DNA from: Halosimplex aquaticum
Lineage (GTDB): Archaea > Halobacteriota > Halobacteria > Halobacteriales > Haloarculaceae
Assembly (NCBI RefSeq): GCF_028747785.1
Contig: NZ_CP118159.1
Coordinates: forward strand, 1 to 64,000
DNA length: 64,000 nucleotides
Direction: 5' to 3'
Shown: positions 31,157 through 62,435 of the stretch, piece by piece
Position numbering within the stretch: position 1 is the first letter of the stretch
Layout of the letters: every line of letters begins with the position of its first letter
Made by a program: the position numbers and the translations under genes
The notes under the pieces: generated by a model
The model's input: the letters and a program-made list of their open reading frames with translations, nothing else
What the model was told of the DNA's origin: nothing
Databases searched by the model: none

Positions 31157-32062
31157 TTACGTCTCGATACGGGGAGCCAGCATCCGAGTCATCGACCCTG
31201 CATCATCGTCGAGGTCGTACGAGAGCATGATGGGGAACTCACTCCCGAAGTCAACTGTGACGTTAGCCCCCTTGGGGATTGTTCGGACGATCTTTTTCAT
31301 GTAGTCGAGGCTGAACAGCGACGAAGCTTCAGCGAACGTGGCCTGGTCGAGTTTCTCCTCATCGAGTTGGAAGTCGACAGTGTCGGTATCACCTTCTGCC
31401 TCGATTCTGAGGACCTCTTCGTCAGCGTCCATCCGGAATCCGACGTGATCGGCAACAAGGTCTGCAGCTTTGACTCCTTGCTGGAGAAGGTCGCGGTCGA
31501 GCGTAGCGCTCGCTGGGAGTTCCAGCTCAGGAAGCGTCGGCTCTGCTCTGATAGTCGCTGGATCGAGGCAAGCCATTCGGAACTCGATGCCGTCGACGAA
31601 GACGACCAGCTTGCGTGTCTCTCTATCGAGGCTGAACTGGACGAGATCGTCCTTCTTTGCGAGGTTCACGGGATCGGCGAAGCGGTCCAGGTCGAGACCG
31701 AGGACACCTGGAGTAGCATCGTACGACTCGAATGCCGAAGCATTCAGAGTGAGATCGTCCATCGCGACGTTGGCGGGATCGACTGCACGGACGCGGATCC
31801 CGGATTCGTCGATCTTGAATCGGGCTTCGTCGACGTTTGCGTGAAGTGCCTTGAGGATGGTCTTGAGAGGACTCGCCTGAATCGTGGCTCGAAACGTGGA
31901 TGGTGGGCCAGATTGAACTGATTCTTCTTCAGGTTCGTTCTGAACGGAACCTGAGTCAGAAGTGTCATCGTTGGACGTGACTGGGTCAGGTTGTTTGTTT
32001 TCTCCCTTGAGGTCTTCGGGAGATTCGATATCGGGAGTCTCTGTGGATGAATCTGTGCTCAT
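31157..32062 (-). CDS. pcn: PCNA sliding clamp with acidic N-terminal extension
   Basis: I start at ATG 32062 (MSTDSSTETPDIESPEDL). The 301-aa product has a disordered acidic extension of about 55 residues. A complete PCNA follows: FRATIQASPLKTILKALHA, then VRAVDPANVAMDDLTL (the conserved inner-ring helix and strand), LGLDLDRFAD and KLVVFVDG. The end is FPIMLSYDLDDDAG and MLAPRIET. Chromosomal haloarchaeal PCNA is about 247 aa and lacks the extension, so this is an accessory clamp. The interdomain loop and C-terminal tail that bind PIP boxes are present. It probably serves element-encoded replication or repair. Confidence 0.92.
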   Translation of the reverse strand: MSTDSSTETPDIESPEDLKGENKQPDPVTSNDDTSDSGSVQNEPEEESVQSGPPSTFRATIQASPLKTILKALHANVDEARFKIDESGIRVRAVDPANVAMDDLTLNASAFESYDATPGVLGLDLDRFADPVNLAKKDDLVQFSLDRETRKLVVFVDGIEFRMACLDPATIRAEPTLPELELPASATLDRDLLQQGVKAADLVADHVGFRMDADEEVLRIEAEGDTDTVDFQLDEEKLDQATFAEASSLFSLDYMKKIVRTIPKGANVTVDFGSEFPIMLSYDLDDDAGSMTRMLAPRIET

Positions 32063-32127
32063 GGGTTTCGTCGTAGCGTCTTCGAGTGGAGGCAAGTCTG
32101 AATAGAGACACTCAGGTCTCTCTCGTC

Positions 32128-32326: not shown

Positions 32327-33826
32327 ATGAGTCTCTGGAGGTCCAAACGGCGCTACGAGACAGGGCGCCACATCAGTGATCAAGCTGATGATGCCCTGTA
32401 TGCGCTCGCCCTTCTCCAGAGCGACGGGTCTGTCACAAGGACGCGTGCGGACGAACTCCGTGATAATCTCGAAGCGGGGAAAGCTGTTCTCAGGACGCTT
32501 CGTGATGCGTTAGAGCATCCTGAGAAATCTGACAACTTCGCATACACATTGGCTCGCCAATTGCGAGAGCATTACGGCGATATCAACAAGTACGCGATTG
32601 AACGTCTAAACCGGCACTTGGACCTTCTGGGGGAAACAAAGGAAGATTTGGAATATCGGGAGAATCTCACCGAAGTCATAGAGACATTGGAACTGGTTGA
32701 AGAGTTGGCGACGCGAACAACTGACCAAGACGCAGAACAACTGCGAGATTACGTTGCCCACTCGGATCATTGATCATCGCGAGAGTGATTTAGAGGCCCG
32801 ATTCGAACACCTTCAGGAGGAGGCAGAGCGGTTTTCAGAGCTCACGATAAGCAATGCGTTTGACGACTACTTTTCTAACATCCGAGACGCTTTCGAGAAA
32901 ATCGATAGCCGTCGATCAGACGTGGAAGCAAATCCGGATAACGACGCGCTGTATCAACGGTACCTCTCAAAGGTCATTTCAGCAGAGGCAGACATCTCTG
33001 ACCTCGAACTTGTACTAACACATCTCGACCTATACACCCATCATCGAGATCGCTGGCCAGATAGAATTCAACACGTCGAAGAGATCTGCGAGGAACTCAC
33101 CGATGCGTTCGGTCTATCTGTGACCTGCTTCCCTGTAATCCGCGAGAATTACGCGCTCTTACCATTGCTCGACGACGATTTCTACGTGATATACGTCCCT
33201 CGCGGGAGAAGTATCGTCCCTACGACTCCAATCCTGGCACACGAAGTTGCTCACGCGCTCTTGGATCAGCGGTCATCACGATCTCACGAGTTCAATCAAC
33301 GATTTAGCGAACTTCGACGGCAAATGGACCATGAGAGAACTGAACGGGATTTTCACGGGAACTGGTCACACTGGTACAGTGAACTCTTCTGCGACGTTGC
33401 TGGCTTCTTTGCATTTGGTCCGAGCTATGTATGTGCCCAACTCCACCATCTCCTCTCCCGAAACCCCTACTTTATCCAGCGTGACGTTGGGGTAGAAGAC
33501 GATACTCTTCATCCCCCCGACGCACTCAGAGTAACCGTCATTACTGATCTCGCGGACGAATATCTCCCAAAGCAGCTCGGGAACCATTAGAAGATATCCG
33601 AGAGGAGTATACTCAACATCTGCAGTGCTATGAGGAATCAAAGCGACCATTTTACGATGAATGGGCTGACGACGAATTGGTCGATGCTGTCATCTCGGAT
33701 GCAGCAGGTGTGAACACCCAGTTCGACCAACTCTGCAGTCACATTCAGAATGGGTCTGACCCGTCCAGTGTACCTGAATTCGAATTTCGACTAAAGGCGA
33801 ACAGGTACTGGCTAGATGAAAATTAG
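32327..33826 (+). pseudogene. HExxH metallopeptidase, two frameshifts
   Basis: Three consecutive frames form one protein of about 499 aa. They are 32327-32773 (MSLWRSKRRYETGRHISDQA onward), about 32760-33590, and about 33570-33826 (PLEDIREEYTQHLQCYEESK, ending YWLDEN). One extra C in CCC at 32757-32759 and one missing C near 33566-33568 restore a single frame. The middle part holds LAHEVAHALLDQ (HExxH) and, about 65 residues on, WYSELFCDVAGFF, an ExxxD motif, so it is a gluzincin-type zinc protease. The N-terminal 170 residues are helical. Its stop overlaps the Argonaute stop head to head (33823-33826). A TATA-like TAATATTATTAT precedes the start. Confidence 0.7.
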
Positions 33827-36029
33827 CTCGGCAGGAATCTGAGCTGGGGACAGCTCTCGAACAAGCTGTGCATCTCCGCGGGATATCGGGTCGTGATTGG
33901 ATCGCTGATCTTGGAACCAGGCGACCACCAGACCAAGAACGAGAGGTCGAATACGTCCTGTCCGATCTCCGTAATATCGATATCTTCGGTTCCTGCTCGT
34001 TCCTGAATCCGGAAGGTACGAGGTGTTCCCTGATACGTGTATTCTCCTCCAGACGGGGCTAAGACCATCGTAGATTCATCTACTTCCGCATATGCCCCGG
34101 TTCGGCACGCACAGTCGGTATCATCGGAATAGATTCGGTACGACGTACTATCTCGCAGCTCGACCGCGCTCCAGCTGAAGTCGTCGTCAATGTATCCCTC
34201 CTCTTTCAGGCTGTCGACGGCAGATTCGATACCTGCGATTTCCTCATTGCCGTAGGTCCCATTTCGATGAACAACCAATGAGTCGACGGTCCCCTCGTTT
34301 TGGTTGATTGCCTCGACAATTCCATCACCAATGAGCTTCTCGGCATGATCGAAATCGTCTACCGTACTATCTCCTCGACCGTGTGGTTGCTTCGTCCAGT
34401 CAATTACGTCCCCTGATTCCCCAGAAACGGTGACAGAGCAAGCAGTTGTACTCTGATCCCCCGTTACACTCAATCCGATGACGACATCTGCATGTAATCC
34501 TTCCTCTAACAGGAACGGTCGAACACCGAGTTTCGATGCAGATCGGTCGCCGTATTCCTGAGTGAATAACTCTCATCCCGATTGCGCTCCTGCTGGTAGT
34601 TCTCGTGACGAATATGCTGGACCGGCTTTCCGTTCACCGCATTGATTACGTCATAATATTCTGTCTGACTATCGCCAGTCAAGTACGCGAACGCACCAGT
34701 GACCTTCTGAGCAAACTCTTCTTTCCACTGGTCGTACTCGGAACGACTCTCGAAACTCACACCGCCAGGCTGCTCTTTCAGATCAAGATCGGCGAATCGC
34801 TTTACATACGACCGAATATCATCGAATGCGTCGAACGCTGTTTGACGGGTTGAATCGGTATGGAGCACCGCAACCCATGGTTCGTCCATCGGTTTCCGTT
34901 TCGGCCCGAACTCTTCGAGATAGTCAAGAGTTCGATACTCCCAGATATCCCTGGTTATGTCTCCTGAGCTAGTCAGATCAGACGTACCTACTTCTAATAC
35001 CGTATCGTCTCCGAAGCTAAGCGCCGGAAAACCGAACGTGTCGACGCCGTCTCGGATCGGTGTGTCAGCGACATCTGCTTCGTGATCTCCGAGACGGATA
35101 TAGTGAACTGGACGGATCCACTCTTGGACTTCTTCCCAGCGTTCGTCTGCCTCCAGCGTCGACGCCTGTGTCGTCACCTCTTCCTGGTTGGGAATCAGTC
35201 GCAGGAGTGATGGTGCAGCATCGTAGGTTCGATTCCCTCGAGAATACTTGTACTTGACAACGGGTTCATTCGGATCGATTTTCCCAGCCCATTCACTCCC
35301 ATAGTTGTTATCGACGAAAGAGAGAACCGAGGTCGGTTCTCCGTCAATATTCATCGTTTCGTCAGTGACAACGGCGTCGGAAACCGAGTGTAATCGTACC
35401 GGTTGAGGTTCAGGACGGTCGAAGAAGAAATAGCGGCGGCCATCCCCAAACTGGTTGATGACTTCTGATTCTCCGTGGGCATCGAGGCGATCCGCCAGCG
35501 TCCGTTCGTCGACGAATTTTCGGGTGGGGTCGAGGCTGAGCATGAAGCCGAATCCGGATCGATAATCGATGCTAGTCCGGATTCCGCGGAACATTTCGTA
35601 AACCGCTTCGTCGCCTCGAACGGTTCGAATTGGGTCGGCTTCGTAGAAGTTCCCTCGTTCATTGTACTCCCAACAGTCAAGTACGGACGTAAGATATGAT
35701 CCAAACCCGTCTCGGAGGGCCTGGCCTATAGCACCTCGATGACGAGGATTTTCCGGGTCGAGAGTAGTTTTATATTCCAGACTTAGAGTTATCCCGTCGG
35801 CGTCAACCTCCTTGGGTTCATGCTCATGTCCGAAGACTGCAATATACCATTTGCCATCGCCTCCCCGGATACGATGAGCCTCTCCCCACGTTCGATCCGA
35901 GAGGATGTTCTCAAAGTGAGCTAGCTCCGAATACGGATTGTCTGGGAGTTCAGCGGATATTTCGTAGATTTTCGCGGGAAGATCAGGGACCGATATCTGG
36001 AACGAACTGAGGAACTGTCCCATTTTCAT
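33823..36029 (-). pseudogene. prokaryotic Argonaute, catalytic residues missing, one frameshift
   Basis: Two open frames, 34506-36029 and 33823 to beyond 34473, join into about 735 aa. The joining segment reads YGDRSASKLGVRPFLLEEG, then HADVVIGLSVTGDQS, just upstream of ATG 34473; one base is missing at 34551-34570. N, PAZ and MID regions are seen in the first frame (FVDERTLADRLDAH, then VVKYKYSRGNRTYDAAPSLL), and the PIWI domain in the second. Compared with NgAgo as I recall it, IGIDVS is IGLSVTG and HRDG is HRNG, so two of the catalytic acidic residues are replaced. It probably binds guide and target without cutting. The nucleotidyltransferase gene lies 81 bp upstream. Confidence 0.8.
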
Positions 36030-36110
36030 TGATAATTTATTGGACCCCAGTTAGTCGTTTCGGGGTCTGCCAGTCTCTTCCTTTTCGGTCCGTTTGAATG
36101 GCAAACTGGA

Positions 36111-36980
36111 TTACTGAATCTGGACAGCATCTCTGTGCCGCTCTAGAATCTGTTTTTCGACTAACCGAGCAATCGCATCGTCAACAGCGTCCATCTGGTC
36201 GTCAGAAAGCGCTCTCACGTTCGAGAGAACGCGGTCGCGAATTTTCTCGATATCGGTTAGTCCATCATCGACCGCACCCAGGACGGTGTACTCGACTTCG
36301 AACTCTGTCGCGAGATCTGAGATACGAGACGTGAACGAATTCGGGAGGCCCGACAGTGAATTGACCGCCATCTCGATAGTGAACAGCGGATGGGAACGCT
36401 CTCGGATGTGTCGTGCTTCAGTCGACCCCGTGTTGAACGGACGCTGTTCGCTGATTTCGATCAGGATCGACTCATAGTCGAGGCCACGCTGGGCGTACTT
36501 CCGCATGTCCTCGATGTCGCGCCGGCGGCCACTCGCCAGGTCACCACCCGAGACCGCTTTCAACAGGAACATGTCCTCGTCCGAGAGGATGAACGCCGTC
36601 GCGTGGTCGCCGGTCCAAAATTCCTCGGCCCGGTCATGCATTCGCTCGGTGATCCACACCTTCCCGACGACTTGCCGCTCGAAGAGGTCGATCTGAAATC
36701 CGCGGTCTTCGTGATGGAGCTCAACTGTTTTCCCGACACCCTCGAACGACTCCGTCGGCTCGTCAACCACCGCAAACCCTTGTGCCAGGAGCGCCTGGTA
36801 GACGTGCTCGAACTCGGAAACGACCCCCAAAGCAAGATCGATATCCTCGGTCTGATCCTTCAGCCCGCGAACCGTCATCGCCGAGCCGCCGAGGAGATAC
36901 ACGTCTACGGGTTCCGAAAGCCAGCTGTCGAACTCTTCGAGGAACGCTCTGATCGCATCTCCGCCTTTGAACACAGTCAT
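36111..36980 (-). CDS. nucleotidyltransferase (DUF6036/MNT-like)
   Basis: This 289-aa protein has a nucleotidyltransferase core: VYLLGGSAMTVRGL (GG-S motif, about residues 27-40), then QTEDIDLALG (D-x-D, about 43-52) and FQIDLFERQVVGK (third Asp). A helical C-terminal region (about 200-289) follows. The class resembles AbiEii and other antitoxin-linked nucleotidyltransferases that modify tRNA or proteins. It overlaps the upstream wHTH gene by 4 nt, so the pair looks like a toxin-antitoxin system. The Argonaute gene follows downstream. A promoter of the shared type (P8) lies inside the end of the upstream gene, so it can be expressed separately. Confidence 0.85.
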   Translation of the reverse strand: MTVFKGGDAIRAFLEEFDSWLSEPVDVYLLGGSAMTVRGLKDQTEDIDLALGVVSEFEHVYQALLAQGFAVVDEPTESFEGVGKTVELHHEDRGFQIDLFERQVVGKVWITERMHDRAEEFWTGDHATAFILSDEDMFLLKAVSGGDLASGRRRDIEDMRKYAQRGLDYESILIEISEQRPFNTGSTEARHIRERSHPLFTIEMAVNSLSGLPNSFTSRISDLATEFEVEYTVLGAVDDGLTDIEKIRDRVLSNVRALSDDQMDAVDDAIARLVEKQILERHRDAVQIQ

Positions 36981-37925
36981 GACACTCCGTACTGCTCTTT
37001 GAGAGCGATAAATTCTGATTCACTTGGGAGGAATATCGGGAGGTCCTCAGCAACCTCGAACTCTCCGTGAAGGGGTCGGTACATCGCAGCCACCGCTGTC
37101 TCCAGATCGTACCACGTTGCCGTTTCTATGAGGGTCTCCTGGTCGATATCCAGTTTCTCGATCAGCAGCATCGAATAACTGACGCGTCGCGACCCGCTAT
37201 CGAGGACAAGGGTGTGGCACACGACCTCCGAGGGCGTGAGTACTTCATCCGGAGCGTACCAGAACGCGGGTTCACCGGCGAGGAAGAACTGCAAGCCGTA
37301 CTCCTGGAATCGCGCGAGTCCAGTCACCCGCCACTCAGCGGCCGACTCTGTGCGGTCGTATCCTCGGACGTCTGGACGCGAACGAGTGCTCGCTTCGGGT
37401 CGCACCACTCGACAGTCGCACTCGGAGCGAGTTCTCGAGCTCGCGAGCGATGGTCGTGGGTCACGACTTCTTGTGCGAACCGTAGCAGTGGCGAGAGGTC
37501 ATCAGTTAACGCGTATTCGGGTCCAGACGGCGACAGCATTGCACGGTGCTTGAGCGGTGACAACGCGTTGTGGACGCCCTGTCTGGTGATGTCGAGTCGG
37601 TCTGCGATCTCGGTCGCTCGACGTGGTTCGTCGAGATACCAGCACACCCGTAACGTAGCTGGTGAGAGTATCTCTGTCCAGTCGACGTGCCCAAGCTTCG
37701 AACGGAGATCTCGATACGCCTCAACGACTGGATGGTCAGTCACTCGGACGAGACGCCGATTCTTCGAACCACGGGCTTCGGTGAGCAAGCCGTCCTCGAG
37801 CAACTCATCGAGGATGTCGTAGATATGGTCCTGCGAATACTCAGTTTCGGTCGCGAGTTCGTCTGGCGTCGCCTCGCGGCCAGCGCTAAGCGCGTCAGCA
37901 GTGCAAGGCTGGCCTTCGTCAGCAT
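36977..37925 (-). pseudogene. wHTH regulator partner of nucleotidyltransferase, two frameshifts
   Basis: The gene probably starts at ATG 37925 (MLTKASLALL), about 30 nt after a TATA-like TTTATA. The frame changes near 37893-37898 to DALSAGREATPDELATET and changes again near 37353-37363 to DRTESAAEWRVTGLARFQEY. Each change needs one missing base. The joined protein is about 316 aa. It has two winged helices (TPDELATETEYSQDHIYDIL and RRATEIADRLDITRQGVHNA) and a C-terminal domain typical of haloarchaeal regulators next to nucleotidyltransferases. Its stop overlaps the nucleotidyltransferase start by 4 nt. Confidence 0.7.
36986..37016 (-). promoter_or_regulatory. TTTATC-hairpin promoter P8 (nucleotidyltransferase)
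   Basis: The coding strand reads GAATTTATC, then GCTCTCAAAGAGC with perfect 5-bp arms, then AGTACGGAG and the ATG at 36980, only about 30 nt from TTTATC. It is embedded in the last codons of the upstream wHTH gene and would give a nearly leaderless transcript. Confidence 0.6.
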
Positions 37926-38022
37926 CTCTGTAAATAATATAGCCGATTCGTATAAATATGTTTCTGGATTTCTGTTTACACACTGGCTGTGAATCGTCTA
38001 CCCCGCTGCGGACGGAATCGTG

Positions 38023-38265
38023 CTACATCGAAACCGGCGGAAGCCAGTCACAGGACGGACAGAACGCTTCGTATACAGCCAGTGTTTCGTCGAACTCCCA
38101 ACCTCCGTCGTCATGGAAGAGTACGCCCGCTCGAATAATAGCATGAACCGCCCCGTGACCACAGTGGGGGCATTCGTCACCTGGGGCCCATCCCGCCCGC
38201 TCGAAATCAATCGTCCACTCCGCATCGGTGACCGACGGCGGCGACCGTTCACCGCAAGAAGTCAT
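38023..38265 (-). CDS. small zinc-ribbon protein coupled to TFB
   Basis: This 80-aa protein starts at ATG 38265 (MTSCGERSPPSVTDAEW), overlapping the TFB stop in an ATGA. It has two CxxC knuckles, CPHCGHGAVH and CPSCDWLPP, separated by about 40 residues, so a single zinc ribbon is likely. Translational coupling to TFB suggests the two work together or share regulation. It could be an HTH-less transcription cofactor, but nothing proves this. Confidence 0.68.
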   Translation of the reverse strand: MTSCGERSPPSVTDAEWTIDFERAGWAPGDECPHCGHGAVHAIIRAGVLFHDDGGWEFDETLAVYEAFCPSCDWLPPVSM

Positions 38266-39248
38266 CTCTGTACCTCCAGTCCAGACTCCGCTGGGCGTTC
38301 GAGCATCGATTGGAGTTTCTTCCACTGCTCACGGAGCGTCATAGCGGAGACATTCGCGAGTTCAGCGAGACTCGTTTGAGTGACTTTCTCGTCACCCTCC
38401 CGAGCTTCATAGACGCAGGCAGCGGCAACACCGGTTGGTCGACAGCCGTTCCCGAGACCGACTTCGGACGCTTCTCGGGCCAACGTCAGGGCGCGTTGGC
38501 GCACTTCTCGTGAGAGATCGAGGTCCGATGCAAATCGTGGGACATACTGAACGGGAGCCATCGGAACGGCCGGGAGATTGAGTTCGTGATTCAGCACGCT
38601 GTACGCGTTGCTGACCCGCTCTTTGGAGACAGTCGACACCTCTCCGACCTCGTCGATTGTCCGAGGGAGTCCCGAACATCGACAGGCTGCATACACGCCG
38701 GCAGCCGCTATTGCTTCAATCGAGCGACCACGGATGAGGTCTTCGTTCGCAGCAGTCCGATAGAGGGCGCACGCCTGCGTACAGATGCTCTCGGAAAGGT
38801 CGAGCGCACCAACGATCCGCCGGATCTCCGAAAGTCCATGTGCAAGGTTCTGGTCTGCCTTCCCTTCGAACTGGGCTTGGCGGTCCCATCGCCGAAGCCG
38901 GTGCAGTTTCCGACGTTTCGCAGCCGGAAGTTGCTGCCCTCGTGCATCGCGATACCGGCCGATCTCTGCAGAGATGCCCCAGTCGTGGCGTGCATTCGTC
39001 ACTGGTCCACCAACGCGACGCCGCTCTTCGGCATCGTATGGCGTCCATTCCGGACCGTAGTCGATACAATCCTCGTCGACGACGAGCCCACACTCAGGAC
39101 AGTACCTCTCAGTACCTTCTCGTCTGAGCTGGACCTCAGAGCACTCGGGGCACTGGTCGGTCGTTGTGAGTCGTTCGTGAATCTCAACACTGTTCCTCTC
39201 AGGCTGTTCAGTGTGCTTCGTCGCGACGCTGGATGATTCTGTAGACAT
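38262..39248 (-). CDS. tfb: transcription initiation factor IIB
   Basis: This 328-aa protein is a complete archaeal TFB. It has an N-terminal zinc ribbon (CPECSEVQLRREGTERYCPEC, about residues 33-53), then a B-finger region (DYGPEWTPYDAEERRRVGGP). Two cyclin-like repeats follow (about 115-205 and 210-310), with IAAAGVYAACRCSGLPRTI and GVAAACVYEAREGDEKVTQ. It recruits RNA polymerase to TBP-bound promoters. Haloarchaea carry many TFB paralogues with distinct promoter sets. A plasmid copy could serve the shared promoter class seen in this window; that is inference. A small zinc-ribbon gene is translationally coupled downstream. Confidence 0.94.
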   Translation of the reverse strand: MSTESSSVATKHTEQPERNSVEIHERLTTTDQCPECSEVQLRREGTERYCPECGLVVDEDCIDYGPEWTPYDAEERRRVGGPVTNARHDWGISAEIGRYRDARGQQLPAAKRRKLHRLRRWDRQAQFEGKADQNLAHGLSEIRRIVGALDLSESICTQACALYRTAANEDLIRGRSIEAIAAAGVYAACRCSGLPRTIDEVGEVSTVSKERVSNAYSVLNHELNLPAVPMAPVQYVPRFASDLDLSREVRQRALTLAREASEVGLGNGCRPTGVAAACVYEAREGDEKVTQTSLAELANVSAMTLREQWKKLQSMLERPAESGLEVQR

Positions 39249-57447: not shown

Positions 57448-60400
57448 TTAGGCACCGTCCAAGCGTGATAGCAGTTCGTCGGTTCTGTCTTTGGCCTCGT
57501 CACGAGAGACGCCTTCGTCGACGTAGCGCTCAATAACTCGGGCACGAATCTGGCCCTGATCCAGCGTATCACGGGGTTCGATGTACCCGTTCTCTTCGAG
57601 GTACGTTTCCAGCTTGTCCACTTTCCCGCTACGGAAACGGTTTACCTCGCCATTGTGCAGAGCTTCGACGATCTGTCTTCCATCCCCATTGACCGATTCG
57701 GCAAGTGCAGTGACCTCGTCGATGAAGTTACCGCTCACAGCGCCAGAGGCTTCGAGGACCTCCCTATCAACGGGCTCGCCACGACCAACCTTCCAAGCGT
57801 CGACGAACTCGCTCAGCGCCGCAGCGTTCTCCTCTACTATCGTTATCTGGTCGGAACCAACGGAGGAGAGGTCTCCGTTGCCCCACTGGAGAAGGTTATT
57901 CAGCTGCCCCCAGTGCTCGATTCCGAGCTCCAGGAGTTGATGGAGGGTTTCGACATCGTCGACCACGTACCACATGTGCGCTGTCCCGGTGCCTCGGTGC
58001 GGATTGAACGAGTCCACCTCGAGCTCATCCCCATACGAGGCGTGGTCGTGACCGTCCCGACTGGGAACCTTCGGAGTGAACGATTCGATAGAGGCCAGCT
58101 CAGGGATATGGACAGAGTCGTCGACGTCACGAACGGTTGCGAGGTCAATGATTTCGTGGTTGACGCCGTTCGTGCTCTCCAGTGCAGCAGTCCACTTCGC
58201 CACTTCGTCGCCCTGTGCGGTGAAATAGAAGATCTGCCGACCGTTCCGGGCCAGTTCGATCGTCGACTCGATGATGGTCCTCGCCCTGCGGTCGTCCGTG
58301 TTGGCGAGTGTCTCGTCGAGGAGAAGTGGAATCCGAACGCCCTGTTCCTGCTGTTCGACGAAAGCAATTCGGACGGCGAGCAGGACCTGAACCCGAGTAC
58401 CGCTCGAAAGTTCGTCGAGCGCGAGTCCCTTCTGTTTGGATTCGTCGAACGCACGGAACTCGGCATCATTCTCGTCGAAGTCCAACCGATACCGGCCACG
58501 AGTGATCGTCGCCAGGATTTCACGAGCACGCTCGAAGACGTCCGGGCGACTAGTCTCCATGGTCGCCTCCTGAACGTGATCCACCAGAACGTCGCCGACC
58601 ATCGCAGCACAGTCGTCCTCGAGTTGGTCTTGCAAGTCATCGAGCGCTCGGTCACGCTCTGCGAGCGCCGTTTCAACTTGATCGTCGGACTTCGCCTGCC
58701 TGATCTCCGCCTTGATATCGGCAATCCGTGACTGAAGGTCGTCGAAATCTTCGGCAGTTCGTTCCGCCTCACGGAGGTCCTCTCTGAGGTCAGCAATCTC
58801 CTGCTCCTTGAGGTCCGGTTCGAATTCTGGGTAGCTTTCGAGTTCTTCGGCCTCCGTTTTCGCCCTGATTTCGGCCTCTCGTACAGCCTCCGCAGCCGAG
58901 TCGTATGCTTCGACCTGCTCACAGAGTTCCTCCAACTGATCGTGGTCATCGGGGTCGAGATTCAGGTCCACAAAGATTTCGTCGCGGTCAGCCTCCAGCG
59001 CATCTATTTTCTCGGTCGCTTCCTGAATCGTCTCGGTAGCTTGGTCAAGGTCCCTCTGTGCAGCTTCGCGTTGCTGTTCGCGGTTCTCGAGGTCCCGGAT
59101 AGTCTCGGTCACCTCACCAGAACTCTGGACGGCGTCGTAGCCGTAGGGATCGAGTTTCGATTGGAGCTCTTCGCGGGCCGTCTCGATCTGCTCGTCGACG
59201 GTTTCGATGCTCTCTCGAATCCCTTCAACCTCGTCGTGGGCTTCCTGCCAGTCGAGCACTCGCTTGGAGATCACGGCGAGTTCGACATCAGACGCATCTG
59301 GCGCGGCGCCCAACTGGTCTTGGAGTTTGGCACGCGTTTCCTCCAGATTCTGCTCTTTCTGTTCGAGCGTGTCTGAGTCCGTCGCCAGGCTATCGCGCCA
59401 TTCGGACCGTCGCTCGGCCAGTTTGTGGGCTGCGATTGCGTCGTACAGTCCGATCAGACGGGACCGGACCTCGTCTTCGGTCCACGCAGCCGGCGGATTC
59501 AGACCGGTTTTCTCGAACGACTCGCGATGCGGTTCTCGTGAATCCCCTCCGTCTTTGGACTGTGAGCGAGCGCGCAGCCCATACCAGAAGATACCAGCGG
59601 CGACGACCAGGATGGAGAACAGCAGTGGATGCACCAGCAGACCGAGCGCGATGCCCGTCGAGGCGAGAGAAACGGCCGAGAACACAGCGATTCGGAATGC
59701 CTCTGAACCGTCGTTTGACTCCGTAGCAACGGACGCGGCCAGCCACTCCTCCAGCGACTGACTCGCGCGCTGGAGCGTGGGTAGATTGGGGTCAGGGTGC
59801 TCCCCGTCCTCCAGTAGTCGCTGGACGGCCTCCCTGGTTTCACGCTCGGACTGGAGTTCTTCGGCCTCTCGGGCGAACTTAGAGACGGTCTTCCACGTGA
59901 CGGGCTCTAGGTCAACGAGGTCCTCGGTATCGACCTCCAGAGGAATGTCCTCTCGTGCAGTTTCTCGCTGCCGTTTAGCGTCAGCCAATTCTCCCTGGAG
60001 ATCGCGTTTCCGGTCCTCCGCAGAATCGAGGTCATCGCGAAGCTCTTTCAGATGGTCGATACGGCCTGTCGGCAGGCCCTCTTCAGGAAGGTCGGCCTCA
60101 TCGAGCCGTTCCTGAGCATCCGTTTTCGTTTCCTCGGCCTCGTCTTTTTTGTCGGTCCACTCGTCGATATCATCTTCGAGGGATCGAACACGCTCGATTT
60201 CGTCTCCGTCGATCTGGTCTACGATATCGGGGAACTCGTCGAGTCTCGATTCAGCCTGCTCCAGCTCGTTTCTCGCCTGTGCGTAGTCGATTGCCTGCTC
60301 AAGCAGCTCGGATCGCTGTTGCGCTTGACGGGCTGCCTCCAGTTCACTACGTAAGCGGGAGAGTTCGATCTGCTCTTGGCGTAGTTCGGAAACGTCGTTC

Positions 60401-60924
60401 CGCGCCTCACGTAACTCCTGAATCGCTCCCTTGGCGTTCTGGACGACGTTCCTGTTGGCCCGACTCGGGGAATCCGAATACCCGAGCTCGTCGTATGCTG
60501 CAGAGAGATCGTACCCACCAGCTGATTCTCGCTCGATTATCTCGGCGAACGACTCGTTGTTGTTGTCTCGCTGGAGGAGGTCGTGGAGGGAGAGACGGTA
60601 GCGGTCGCGTTGATCGGCCGGAGGCAGGCTCGGACCGTTCGCCTCCTGGCCGTCACGCTGGTAGCTCGTACGCCCCTTATCGACTTCGACTCGCCAATCC
60701 TCACCATTCAGTGAGAGCTGCCCCACGAGTGATGCACGTTCGTCGGCGGTCTCGGGCCAACAAAGCCATTCGAGCGACTCAGCGAGCGTCGTTTTTCCTG
60801 CCGCGTTCGGTCCATGAACGACATTGATTCCGGAACACAGGTCGTCGACCGAGAAGCCACCGGTCTCGAACCCAGGAGCCTGGACGATCTGGATTTCCTC
60901 GAAGCAGATCGGGTCCCTGGTCAC
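57448..60924 (-). CDS. YhaN-like AAA ATPase (SbcC/Rad50-related)
   Basis: The 1158-aa protein has a Rad50-like ATPase split by long coiled coils. Walker A is GPNAAGKTTLAESLEWL (about residues 39-55). The signature and Walker B lie near the end of the second half (LDELSSGTRVQVLLAVRIAF, then LLLDETLANTDDRRAR). In the middle (about residues 400-450) is a membrane-like segment (AVFSAVSLASTGIALGLLVH, then LLFSILVVAAGIFW), as in YhaN rather than SbcC. A C-terminal addition of about 180 residues follows (ELDSFN-type to DELLSRLDGA). It overlaps the nuclease gene by 4 nt and should form a DNA-processing complex with it. Confidence 0.85.
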   Translation of the reverse strand: MTRDPICFEEIQIVQAPGFETGGFSVDDLCSGINVVHGPNAAGKTTLAESLEWLCWPETADERASLVGQLSLNGEDWRVEVDKGRTSYQRDGQEANGPSLPPADQRDRYRLSLHDLLQRDNNNESFAEIIERESAGGYDLSAAYDELGYSDSPSRANRNVVQNAKGAIQELREARNDVSELRQEQIELSRLRSELEAARQAQQRSELLEQAIDYAQARNELEQAESRLDEFPDIVDQIDGDEIERVRSLEDDIDEWTDKKDEAEETKTDAQERLDEADLPEEGLPTGRIDHLKELRDDLDSAEDRKRDLQGELADAKRQRETAREDIPLEVDTEDLVDLEPVTWKTVSKFAREAEELQSERETREAVQRLLEDGEHPDPNLPTLQRASQSLEEWLAASVATESNDGSEAFRIAVFSAVSLASTGIALGLLVHPLLFSILVVAAGIFWYGLRARSQSKDGGDSREPHRESFEKTGLNPPAAWTEDEVRSRLIGLYDAIAAHKLAERRSEWRDSLATDSDTLEQKEQNLEETRAKLQDQLGAAPDASDVELAVISKRVLDWQEAHDEVEGIRESIETVDEQIETAREELQSKLDPYGYDAVQSSGEVTETIRDLENREQQREAAQRDLDQATETIQEATEKIDALEADRDEIFVDLNLDPDDHDQLEELCEQVEAYDSAAEAVREAEIRAKTEAEELESYPEFEPDLKEQEIADLREDLREAERTAEDFDDLQSRIADIKAEIRQAKSDDQVETALAERDRALDDLQDQLEDDCAAMVGDVLVDHVQEATMETSRPDVFERAREILATITRGRYRLDFDENDAEFRAFDESKQKGLALDELSSGTRVQVLLAVRIAFVEQQEQGVRIPLLLDETLANTDDRRARTIIESTIELARNGRQIFYFTAQGDEVAKWTAALESTNGVNHEIIDLATVRDVDDSVHIPELASIESFTPKVPSRDGHDHASYGDELEVDSFNPHRGTGTAHMWYVVDDVETLHQLLELGIEHWGQLNNLLQWGNGDLSSVGSDQITIVEENAAALSEFVDAWKVGRGEPVDREVLEASGAVSGNFIDEVTALAESVNGDGRQIVEALHNGEVNRFRSGKVDKLETYLEENGYIEPRDTLDQGQIRARVIERYVDEGVSRDEAKDRTDELLSRLDGA

Positions 60925-62222
60925 GCCTTACCCTCCTTTTGGCTGAGTAGGGTATCGAGCAGCACCCGTGCTTGCTGTTCGAGATGGTCGATTGCGTCAT
61001 CGTCGTCAGGATCCTCGAGTTCAGTCTCGCGTCTAAGCGGGTTGTACGCATTTGCACTATGAGCCTGCCGGACAGTGCCTAGCGAGTCATCGACCACGTC
61101 ACCGTAGGCTTCGCGAGGATCACCGTCCTCGATTTCGAGCAGGAGACCCGCGAGGTATGCAGCTGCATTGTCTCCTTCCGCAAGGTCTTCGAGATCGATT
61201 GCGGGCCGTGTATCGACGTCAATCGATTCGATCCGGACGGAAACCGATCCCTCCCTAAATCCGAGGTCACGCTCCATCGACCGATGCTGATCGACGAGCG
61301 CCGAGTGCGCATCCGTCCGTCCAGTTAGATGAACACGAACGAGGCTGAGTTCCAGCGACCCCGTATCGAGTTCGGAGCGAACGTGTTCCTTGATTTCGTC
61401 CGAAATGACGGCAGTCGCCTCCTGTGGGTCGTCTACCCCGGAGACGTCGACCGAAACCCGGTCGTAGCGAACGGATGCCAGGGGAATCTGGTCAGCTTGT
61501 ACGTCTCCGTTTTCGAGCATCGTAATCGTCCACGGGCCGTGGGCCCGCTGTTCTCCTGGGTCAAGGGGTTGTGGCGACCCCGAGTACAACGCCAGTGGAC
61601 GCGAGTCGATCTGGATGCCTGGACTGTGAATATGACCGAGTAACCAGGCATCTGCCGCGGTGTCGCGGAGTTCGCTCGACAGAACCGGTGCGTACTGGCT
61701 GCCTCGCGAGTCGAGGTCGGCGTGAAGTACTCCGATCTGAGGAGCGTCATCGGTCGCCGGGAGGTCGTACTCATCGAGCGGGGACTCGTAGACGTGTTCG
61801 GCCGAAAACGACCAGCCATCGAAGTGGGCGATGGGCTCGCCGTCCCGGTCAAGCGTCCAGCGTTCCCACTGCCCGCCTCTCCCGAGGAATTGGAGCGTGT
61901 CAGCGTCGAGGTTATCGACCATATCAGGGAGCGCATCGAAGTCGTGGTTCCCGGCTACCACGACGACTGGAATCCCCGCTTCGTCGAGTTGTGCAACCCC
62001 GTCTTCGAACGCGCCATACGCCTCGAAGTAGCGATTCTCCTGATCGACGACGTCACCAGCAATCACGACCACGTCGACGTCACGGTCGATTGCTTCCTGG
62101 ACCGTCGACAGCCAGACAGCTTTCGGCGACAGCTCCGGACCATCCAAATCATCCGGAATTCGACTCGGGTGACGGCCGAGGTGGAGATCTCCCGTGTACA
62201 GTAGTTCCAGGGCATCCTTCAT
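60921..62222 (-). CDS. YhaO-like metallophosphoesterase (SbcD/Mre11-related)
   Basis: I start at ATG 62222 (MKDALELLYTGDLHLGRH); the frame is open to 62252. The 433-aa protein carries the phosphoesterase motifs in order: GDLHLG (about 11-16), VVIAGDVVDQENR, VVVAGNHDFD, LHADLDSRG and LLGHIHSPGIQ. These bind two Mn ions in DNA exonucleases. The C-terminal 150 residues are acidic and helical and probably hold the ATPase-binding part. It is coupled to the YhaN-like gene by an ATGA overlap. It likely cuts DNA ends or structures for repair or defence. A TTTATC sits about 40 bp upstream, but without the hairpin of the shared promoters. Confidence 0.88.
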   Translation of the reverse strand: MKDALELLYTGDLHLGRHPSRIPDDLDGPELSPKAVWLSTVQEAIDRDVDVVVIAGDVVDQENRYFEAYGAFEDGVAQLDEAGIPVVVVAGNHDFDALPDMVDNLDADTLQFLGRGGQWERWTLDRDGEPIAHFDGWSFSAEHVYESPLDEYDLPATDDAPQIGVLHADLDSRGSQYAPVLSSELRDTAADAWLLGHIHSPGIQIDSRPLALYSGSPQPLDPGEQRAHGPWTITMLENGDVQADQIPLASVRYDRVSVDVSGVDDPQEATAVISDEIKEHVRSELDTGSLELSLVRVHLTGRTDAHSALVDQHRSMERDLGFREGSVSVRIESIDVDTRPAIDLEDLAEGDNAAAYLAGLLLEIEDGDPREAYGDVVDDSLGTVRQAHSANAYNPLRRETELEDPDDDDAIDHLEQQARVLLDTLLSQKEGKA

Positions 62223-62435
62223 GAGTGCGACTAGACAGTGAGATAGAAGCACAAGTCACTGATAAATAAAATCTACCCATTCTTGTACTGTAAGAGGGTG
62301 GGATGTATCCAATATGTAGGTACTGTCCGGGATCTCATTTTTGCCAAGACTCAAGAATCGGCTACATGGGGAGTGTCCACCATAGCGTCAATCTAAAAGA
62401 AAAATTTGTAAGACAAGGCATCCAACCGAGTCCAT

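Follow-up and report, generated by a model that had tools for sequence, protein, structure and literature searches.

Here we describe a three-gene module in a 64,000-nucleotide stretch of a haloarchaeal genome, that of Halosimplex aquaticum (hereafter the window; bases 1-64000 of the 181,964 bp contig C2). In this module, the gene for a long prokaryotic Argonaute (pAgo), predicted to be catalytically dead, converges with the genes for a small helical protein and a probable HExxH zinc protease. The three genes are co-inherited, under purifying selection, and horizontally spread. We consider, with moderate confidence, that the module most likely defends against plasmids or viruses, and that guide-directed recognition by the pAgo would trigger proteolysis; the defense role is suggested by a context that is plasmid-borne, patchy, and horizontally spread. 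A sequence-only reading of this DNA had proposed that target recognition is coupled to proteolysis or to nucleotide transfer by a neighboring gene pair. The association described below supports proteolysis, while nucleotide transfer found no support. The genes lay where that reading had placed them (pAgo, 36029-33823; protease end, 33826; nucleotidyltransferase, 36980-36111, 81 bp upstream of the pAgo gene), and the convergent pAgo and protease stop codons indeed overlap by 4 bp at 33823-33826.

We searched 392 Halobacteria genomes and found a full-length pAgo of this type in 11, the window's own included. An independent search of the same genomes with a protease profile gave strong matches in exactly the same 11, a coincidence with a chance of ∼1e-21 if the two genes were independent. 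With Haloglomus halophilum and four plasmids added (from Natrinema caseinilyticum, Halorussus caseinilyticus, Halobacterium salinarum, and Haloplanus rubicundus), the haloarchaeal set comprised 16 loci, and the pAgo gene is convergent with the protease and small-protein genes in all 16. In the Natrinema locus, an insertion bearing an IS5 transposase and other genes splits the pAgo from the protease. The pAgo and protease stops overlap by 4 bp in six of 10 homologous loci and by 16-20 bp in three, and are separated by a 1-bp gap in one; gene order and stop overlap are conserved down to ∼30% identity. Searches of plasmid records with the pAgo and with the protease agreed in both directions (5/5 haloarchaeal), and in the collections searched, every intact protease of this family was accompanied by a pAgo. 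Virus scans with both profiles returned no pAgo and one weak, 93-residue protease-like match. The ratio of nonsynonymous to synonymous substitution rates (dN/dS) was 0.04-0.16 for all three module genes wherever it could be computed, with 0.07-0.16 for the protease and 0.05-0.12 for the small protein. Distances among the pAgos and among the proteases are also correlated (mirror-tree r = 0.89). No partner other than the protease and the small protein occurs in every locus, and no nuclease, Sir2, or transmembrane effector of the BPAN, BPAS, or BPAM type is conserved beside the 16 haloarchaeal loci.

The association also extends beyond haloarchaea. When 393 genomes of the phylum were searched with the protease, a distant relative (5.5e-12) turned up in G555, a genome of another class. 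On its 9.3-kb contig, genes on the same strand code for a PD-(D/E)XK nuclease, a pAgo whose aspartates are intact, a protein of 136 aa, and the HExxH protein; mis-binning of this contig is possible because the assembly is fragmented. Within that class, the pAgo and the protease each occur in one of 58 genomes, and it is the same genome. Among 72,556 plasmids, the G555 protease had matches in those of Rhizobium, Runella, and Spirosoma; a cyanobacterial plasmid was added by a pAgo query, and Emticicia was added by further searches. This bacterial sample is small, and the same five plasmids came out in both search directions. All five carry, in the same order, a nuclease-type gene (assigned by position only in Emticicia), a pAgo, a small protein, and an HExxH protein. 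The Runella protease directly matches the Natrinema protease (2e-5), and the haloarchaeal and bacterial/G555 protease profiles align over 208 columns in the catalytic region (hhalign 98.6%, 7e-16). In a pAgo tree with some long branches, the protease-associated pAgos were separated from six other pAgos by a branch with 85% bootstrap support.

The sequence-only reading had suggested repeated co-occurrence as support for its proposal, and pAgo and protease are linked in 22 of 22 loci, namely 16/16 haloarchaeal, one non-halobacterial archaeon, and 5/5 bacterial plasmids, in two gene orders. It had also named homologues without either neighbor and with intact catalytic residues as evidence to the contrary. 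Homologues with intact residues do exist, but none lacks the protease, while the nucleotidyltransferase is lacking in 20 of the 22. Since the intact homologues also carry the protease, the association appears to be older than the catalytic loss. A broader operon family couples a homologous protease to pAgos that are catalytically active as judged by their conserved residues, all of the protease-linked pAgos outside haloarchaea being intact. The Runella pAgo is RslAgo (WP_013921749.1), and PliAgo is a full-length homologue (2.7e-111). The Rhizobium and Runella operons, of the PliAgo group, include a small helix-turn-helix (HTH) regulator, and those of Spirosoma and Emticicia a sigma70 factor. 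Defense-type genes adjoin some bacterial loci, including a CBASS phospholipase in Rhizobium (L091:7079-8038) and a multiubiquitin/ThiF set in Runella (L092:7225-9404).

We then considered the pAgo itself. PADLOC pAgo/PIWI models matched both halves of the frameshifted gene (N half, PprPIWI 1.5e-24; C half, PprPIWI 3.7e-35 and pAgo 1.5e-33), and the full-length protein matched PprPIWI at 1.8e-67, consistent with a long pAgo in which an N-terminal N/PAZ lobe precedes MID-PIWI. The pAgo profile matched the PDB structures of VbAgo (5.4e-47, profile 77-712) and PliAgo (2.1e-37). PliAgo was also the best Foldseek match of the predicted structure (2.2e-30, ∼700 columns), the PIWI C terminus being of low confidence in the model. 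Identity between the window pAgo and its haloarchaeal homologues is as low as 29-34%. The sequence-only reading had noted that two catalytic aspartates were changed. Both fall on the only two columns at which the PDB entry VbAgo-DM differs from VbAgo, and the loss in fact goes further, since all four DEDD positions are lost in the window pAgo when aligned with DEDD pAgos. Of the 16 haloarchaeal pAgos, 13 have S, two have D, and one has N at the first catalytic position; at the third, 14 have N and two have G. The 12 that were aligned with DEDD pAgos have all lost positions two and four, and none retains more than one of the four. By its residues, the pAgo is therefore predicted to be catalytically dead across the whole haloarchaeal branch. 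In the MID domain, all 16 keep the Y, Q, and second K of the (Y/H/R)KQK motif and have I or V in place of the first K; the canonical YK guide-binding motif of long-B pAgos is likewise absent. The guide type cannot safely be inferred because that first K is lost. A second pAgo, with an intact DEDD tetrad, is encoded on the chromosome (contig C1; L029:7272-9830), ∼2 kb downstream of an AddAB-like helicase-nuclease pair (L029:33-5387), and the pAgo of another genome, G053 (L031), has an AddAB-like pair within 3-9 kb.

The HExxH and W[YF]xE[LF]xCD motifs are intact in all 16 haloarchaeal proteases, and the H, E, and H together with the downstream E, C, and D are invariant across archaea and bacteria, a pattern consistent with gluzincins, in which HExxH is followed by a downstream glutamate. 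What the sequence-only reading had taken as a single HExxH protease gene is two overlapping genes. The protease starts at a TTG (32754) inside the end of the 148-aa small-protein gene (32327-32773), and this overlap, conserved in homologues, is a true gene boundary that had looked like a first frameshift. The small protein is conserved at all 16 haloarchaeal loci, with identity falling to ∼21%; its annotation in the Haloplanus plasmid covers the 3′ part alone. On present evidence, the HExxH protein family is undescribed. No PADLOC-DB 2.0 model covers either the protease or the small protein to a meaningful extent (best E 0.005), and solved-structure searches with profiles of both gave coiled-coil or chance matches only. 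A relic in genome G339 (L084:2839-10376), picked up by the small-protein profile, retains the small gene and an AddAB-like pair, with the protease reduced to a ∼30-residue stub and the pAgo gone.

The remaining frameshifts that had been suspected, at 33577 (protease), ∼34539 (pAgo), and 37349 and 37896 (the winged HTH [wHTH] gene), are assembly errors because the same frames are open in another copy of the region. Alignment against contig C2 showed that window 1-49312 corresponds to C2:132605-181905 at 99.8% identity with 51 gap openings. This is best explained as over-circularization, with 49.3 kb present at both ends of the contig and a true plasmid of ∼132.6 kb. The window copy is short of one base at 33577 and of one near 34539. 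The second copy has open frames for the protease, the wHTH protein, and the C-terminal portion of the pAgo; it carries an error of its own close to the start of the pAgo gene, at a point where the frame is open in the window copy. AGCT sites are tenfold overrepresented among the differences between the two copies (20/65 clusters versus a 3.1% background), a bias suggestive of base-calling error, possibly at a motif that is modified. Many indel errors occur in the window gene calls. Reading the frameshifted genes as pseudogenes was ruled out by the open frames in the duplicate copy and the low dN/dS.

The wHTH/nucleotidyltransferase pair, by contrast with the protease, is a passenger. That it is a functional partner of the pAgo seems very improbable: it lies 81 bp upstream on the same strand and is kept in the near-identical Natrinema plasmid locus, but it is present in only these two of the 22 pAgo-protease loci and is absent even beside the 90%-identical pAgo of G336, which refutes it as a general feature. 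The pair may have a strain-specific accessory role. The DUF6036 label given by the sequence-only reading was not confirmed in a Pfam scan.

Table 1. Coordinates of the module genes and of neighboring features in the window
Feature	Coordinates	Strand	Basis
Small helical protein (prot1), 148 aa	32327..32773	+	Beside pAgo in 16/16 haloarchaeal loci
Probable HExxH zinc protease, 357 aa, TTG start, HEVAH + WYSELFCD	32754..33826	+	Motifs; open in second copy
Long pAgo, predicted catalytically dead, 735 aa	33823..36029	-	PADLOC pAgo models, profile matches, tetrad loss, Foldseek
Convergent 4-bp overlap of pAgo and protease stop codons	33823..33826	.	Overlap recurs in homologous loci
Nucleotidyltransferase-like protein, passenger outside the module	36111..36980	-	Adjoins pAgo in the window and Natrinema caseinilyticum alone
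wHTH protein with HVO_2833_C domain, passenger	36977..37983	-	Pfam PF24271 5.8e-54; one 340-codon open frame in second copy
Rad50-like (60924-57448) and Mre11-like (62252-60921) pair, same plasmid; possible accessory, linkage to module uncertain	57448..62252	-	tblastn to L020 pair

Several other genes lie near the module. A transcription factor IIB (TFIIB) gene is found a few kb from it (38262-39248, - strand), as also near the module in L063:9017-9760, L018:7588-8667, and L022:4696-5637. This may parallel the sigma70 gene of bacterial PnyAgo-type operons (L093 and L096) or may be a habit of plasmids. A gene for an N-terminally extended PCNA-like sliding clamp (31157-32095, - strand) is divergent from the small-protein gene and also occurs in the Natrinema plasmid. 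Of the 16 haloarchaeal loci, 11 have AddAB-like helicase-nucleases with PDDEXK_1 domains within ∼10 kb, and five have Mre11/Rad50-like genes; AddAB-like genes sit near other haloarchaeal pAgos too. In the window, the Rad50-like protein has a Pfam AAA_23 match (5.3e-08), and a pair of the same kind directly precedes the pAgo in L020 and L064. An AddA-like UvrD helicase (a 1213-aa frame) is encoded at C2:128631-131288 on the same plasmid, ∼34 kb from the pAgo.

Among known systems, the closest are the D-R pAgos (the PliAgo/RslAgo and PnyAgo groups). RslAgo cuts RNA with the help of DNA guides (Lisitskaya et al., 2022; PMC9360449), and the same paper describes conserved D-R pAgo operons that have a PD-(D/E)XK nuclease gene upstream and an HTH or sigma70 gene. 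D-R pAgos are homologous to the window pAgo and have a PD-(D/E)XK nuclease nearby, and the operon of RslAgo itself has a homologous protease downstream. The haloarchaeal pAgos form a related but separate branch that has lost the DEDD tetrad, has an altered MID pocket, and is convergent with its partners instead of in an operon; in the window, no PD-(D/E)XK nuclease gene precedes the pAgo. In the text of PMC9360449, the operon figure aside, the word "protease" does not appear, and the main text of a 2018 census (PMC6299218) mentions neither protease nor peptidase. Because that census was restricted to operons on a single strand, it would have missed the convergent arrangement of haloarchaea. 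In the open-licence papers searched, we found no pAgo coupled to a protease or peptidase effector. PADLOC "pAgo Class II", with an Aga_Cas4-like nuclease, matches the Runella pAgo (E = 0) and its nuclease (2.6e-120), whereas the window has no stand-alone nuclease.

Catalytically dead long-B pAgos act with a nuclease, a Sir2 protein, or a membrane protein (Song et al., 2023; PMC10620215). These BPAN, BPAS, and BPAM systems likewise pair a dead full-length pAgo with a dedicated partner, under the same proposed logic of an effector triggered by recognition, but their nuclease, Sir2 NADase, or membrane protein is in the same operon, whereas the window has a convergent protease and a small protein. 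The PDB entry named EcAgo matched the window pAgo profile at only 1.5e-6, far behind VbAgo and PliAgo. Membership in the long-B, BPAN-type group was ruled out by the pAgo profile matches and the MID motif. Craspase comprises the type III-E CRISPR protein gRAMP and the TPR-CHAT protease, and its guide-directed recognition of RNA activates the protease. The likeness, of a protease switched on by guide-directed recognition, is an analogy only; there is no homology, with Argonaute in place of gRAMP and an HExxH metalloprotease in place of a caspase-like one. Gluzincins (the minigluzincin abylysin, M48, and IrrE/PprI) share HExxH followed by a conserved downstream glutamate, but the haloarchaeal protein has no Pfam match or significant fold match to them.

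We envisage a mechanism that would be the Argonaute counterpart of Craspase. The pAgo would take up a short guide, probably of DNA like those of the related RslAgo and PliAgo, and bind a complementary target, probably RNA from invader transcripts, without cutting it. Kinship with D-R pAgos suggests DNA guides and RNA targets, which stay uncertain because the MID pocket is altered. Guides might come from the ends of invader DNA through the PD-(D/E)XK or AddAB-type nucleases often encoded alongside; the AddAB-like and Mre11/Rad50-like genes near haloarchaeal loci suggest such production from DNA ends. Target binding would release or activate the protease, with the small protein as an adaptor or inhibitor, and the protease would then cleave a host or invader protein and stop the infection. 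The haloarchaeal pAgo should not cut, and therefore another component must act.

Several observations weigh against this reading. The name "protease" rests on HExxH and the conserved downstream E..CD, which make that function probable, while a Pfam scan matched the protein to no family, peptidase or ImmA/IrrE included. Its AlphaFold model is weak (pLDDT 70) and gave no significant Foldseek match, the best probability being 0.54 for abylysin. The haloarchaeal MID pocket is without the first K of its motif, and the module genes are convergent, outside a single operon. Homology between the haloarchaeal and bacterial small proteins is not demonstrable (hhalign 17%), although size and position are similar. 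The correlation of pAgo and protease distances is partly expected for any linked genes.

These points bear on the alternatives to different degrees. The principal one, less probable yet the strongest of the alternatives, is that the protease is an ImmA/IrrE-like regulator that turns on the pAgo system by cleaving either a transcription repressor or the small protein, leaving killing or silencing to the pAgo or nuclease. The HTH regulator (Rhizobium and Runella) or sigma70 factor (Spirosoma and Emticicia) in the bacterial operons would suit such a role, as would a weak Foldseek match of the protease to PprI (IrrE type) and the RNase activity of the bacterial pAgo itself (PMC9360449). In haloarchaea, however, the protease and small protein are retained but an HTH gene is not conserved next to the module, and the pAgo is predicted to be unable to cut, so that the activity must come from another component; nor does the protease match ImmA/IrrE in Pfam. 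The lack of a recognized peptidase family and of a confident fold match would also fit a structural or metal-binding partner that stabilizes or anchors the pAgo and is no peptidase in practice; the invariant H, E, H and E, C, D and the strong purifying selection make this improbable. Co-location by chance, or as part of a defense island, might be expected of loci in plasmid- and defense-rich DNA with unrelated neighbors, but it is refuted by the exact coincidence in 11 of 392 genomes and by linkage in 22/22 loci, in two gene orders, in bacteria and archaea, and we regard it as next to negligible.

Recognition-triggered proteolysis would have consequences beyond this plasmid. The pAgo effectors in the papers cited act by nucleic acid degradation, NAD+ depletion, or membrane action, and a protease would be a new class of output. 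Operons of purified D-R pAgos such as RslAgo would then be reinterpreted and would offer a ready test system, and the module would be a candidate for a programmable protease triggered by RNA, in parallel to the CRISPR-guided Craspase. More tentatively, and with rather less confidence than in the defense role, Argonaute-guided proteolysis could be a widespread and so far unrecognized immune strategy, with the characterized RNA-cutting D-R pAgos as only half of their full system and the haloarchaeal pAgo reduced to a pure sensor. If true, DNA-guided recognition of invader RNA by a pAgo would switch on a dedicated zinc protease in bacteria and archaea alike.

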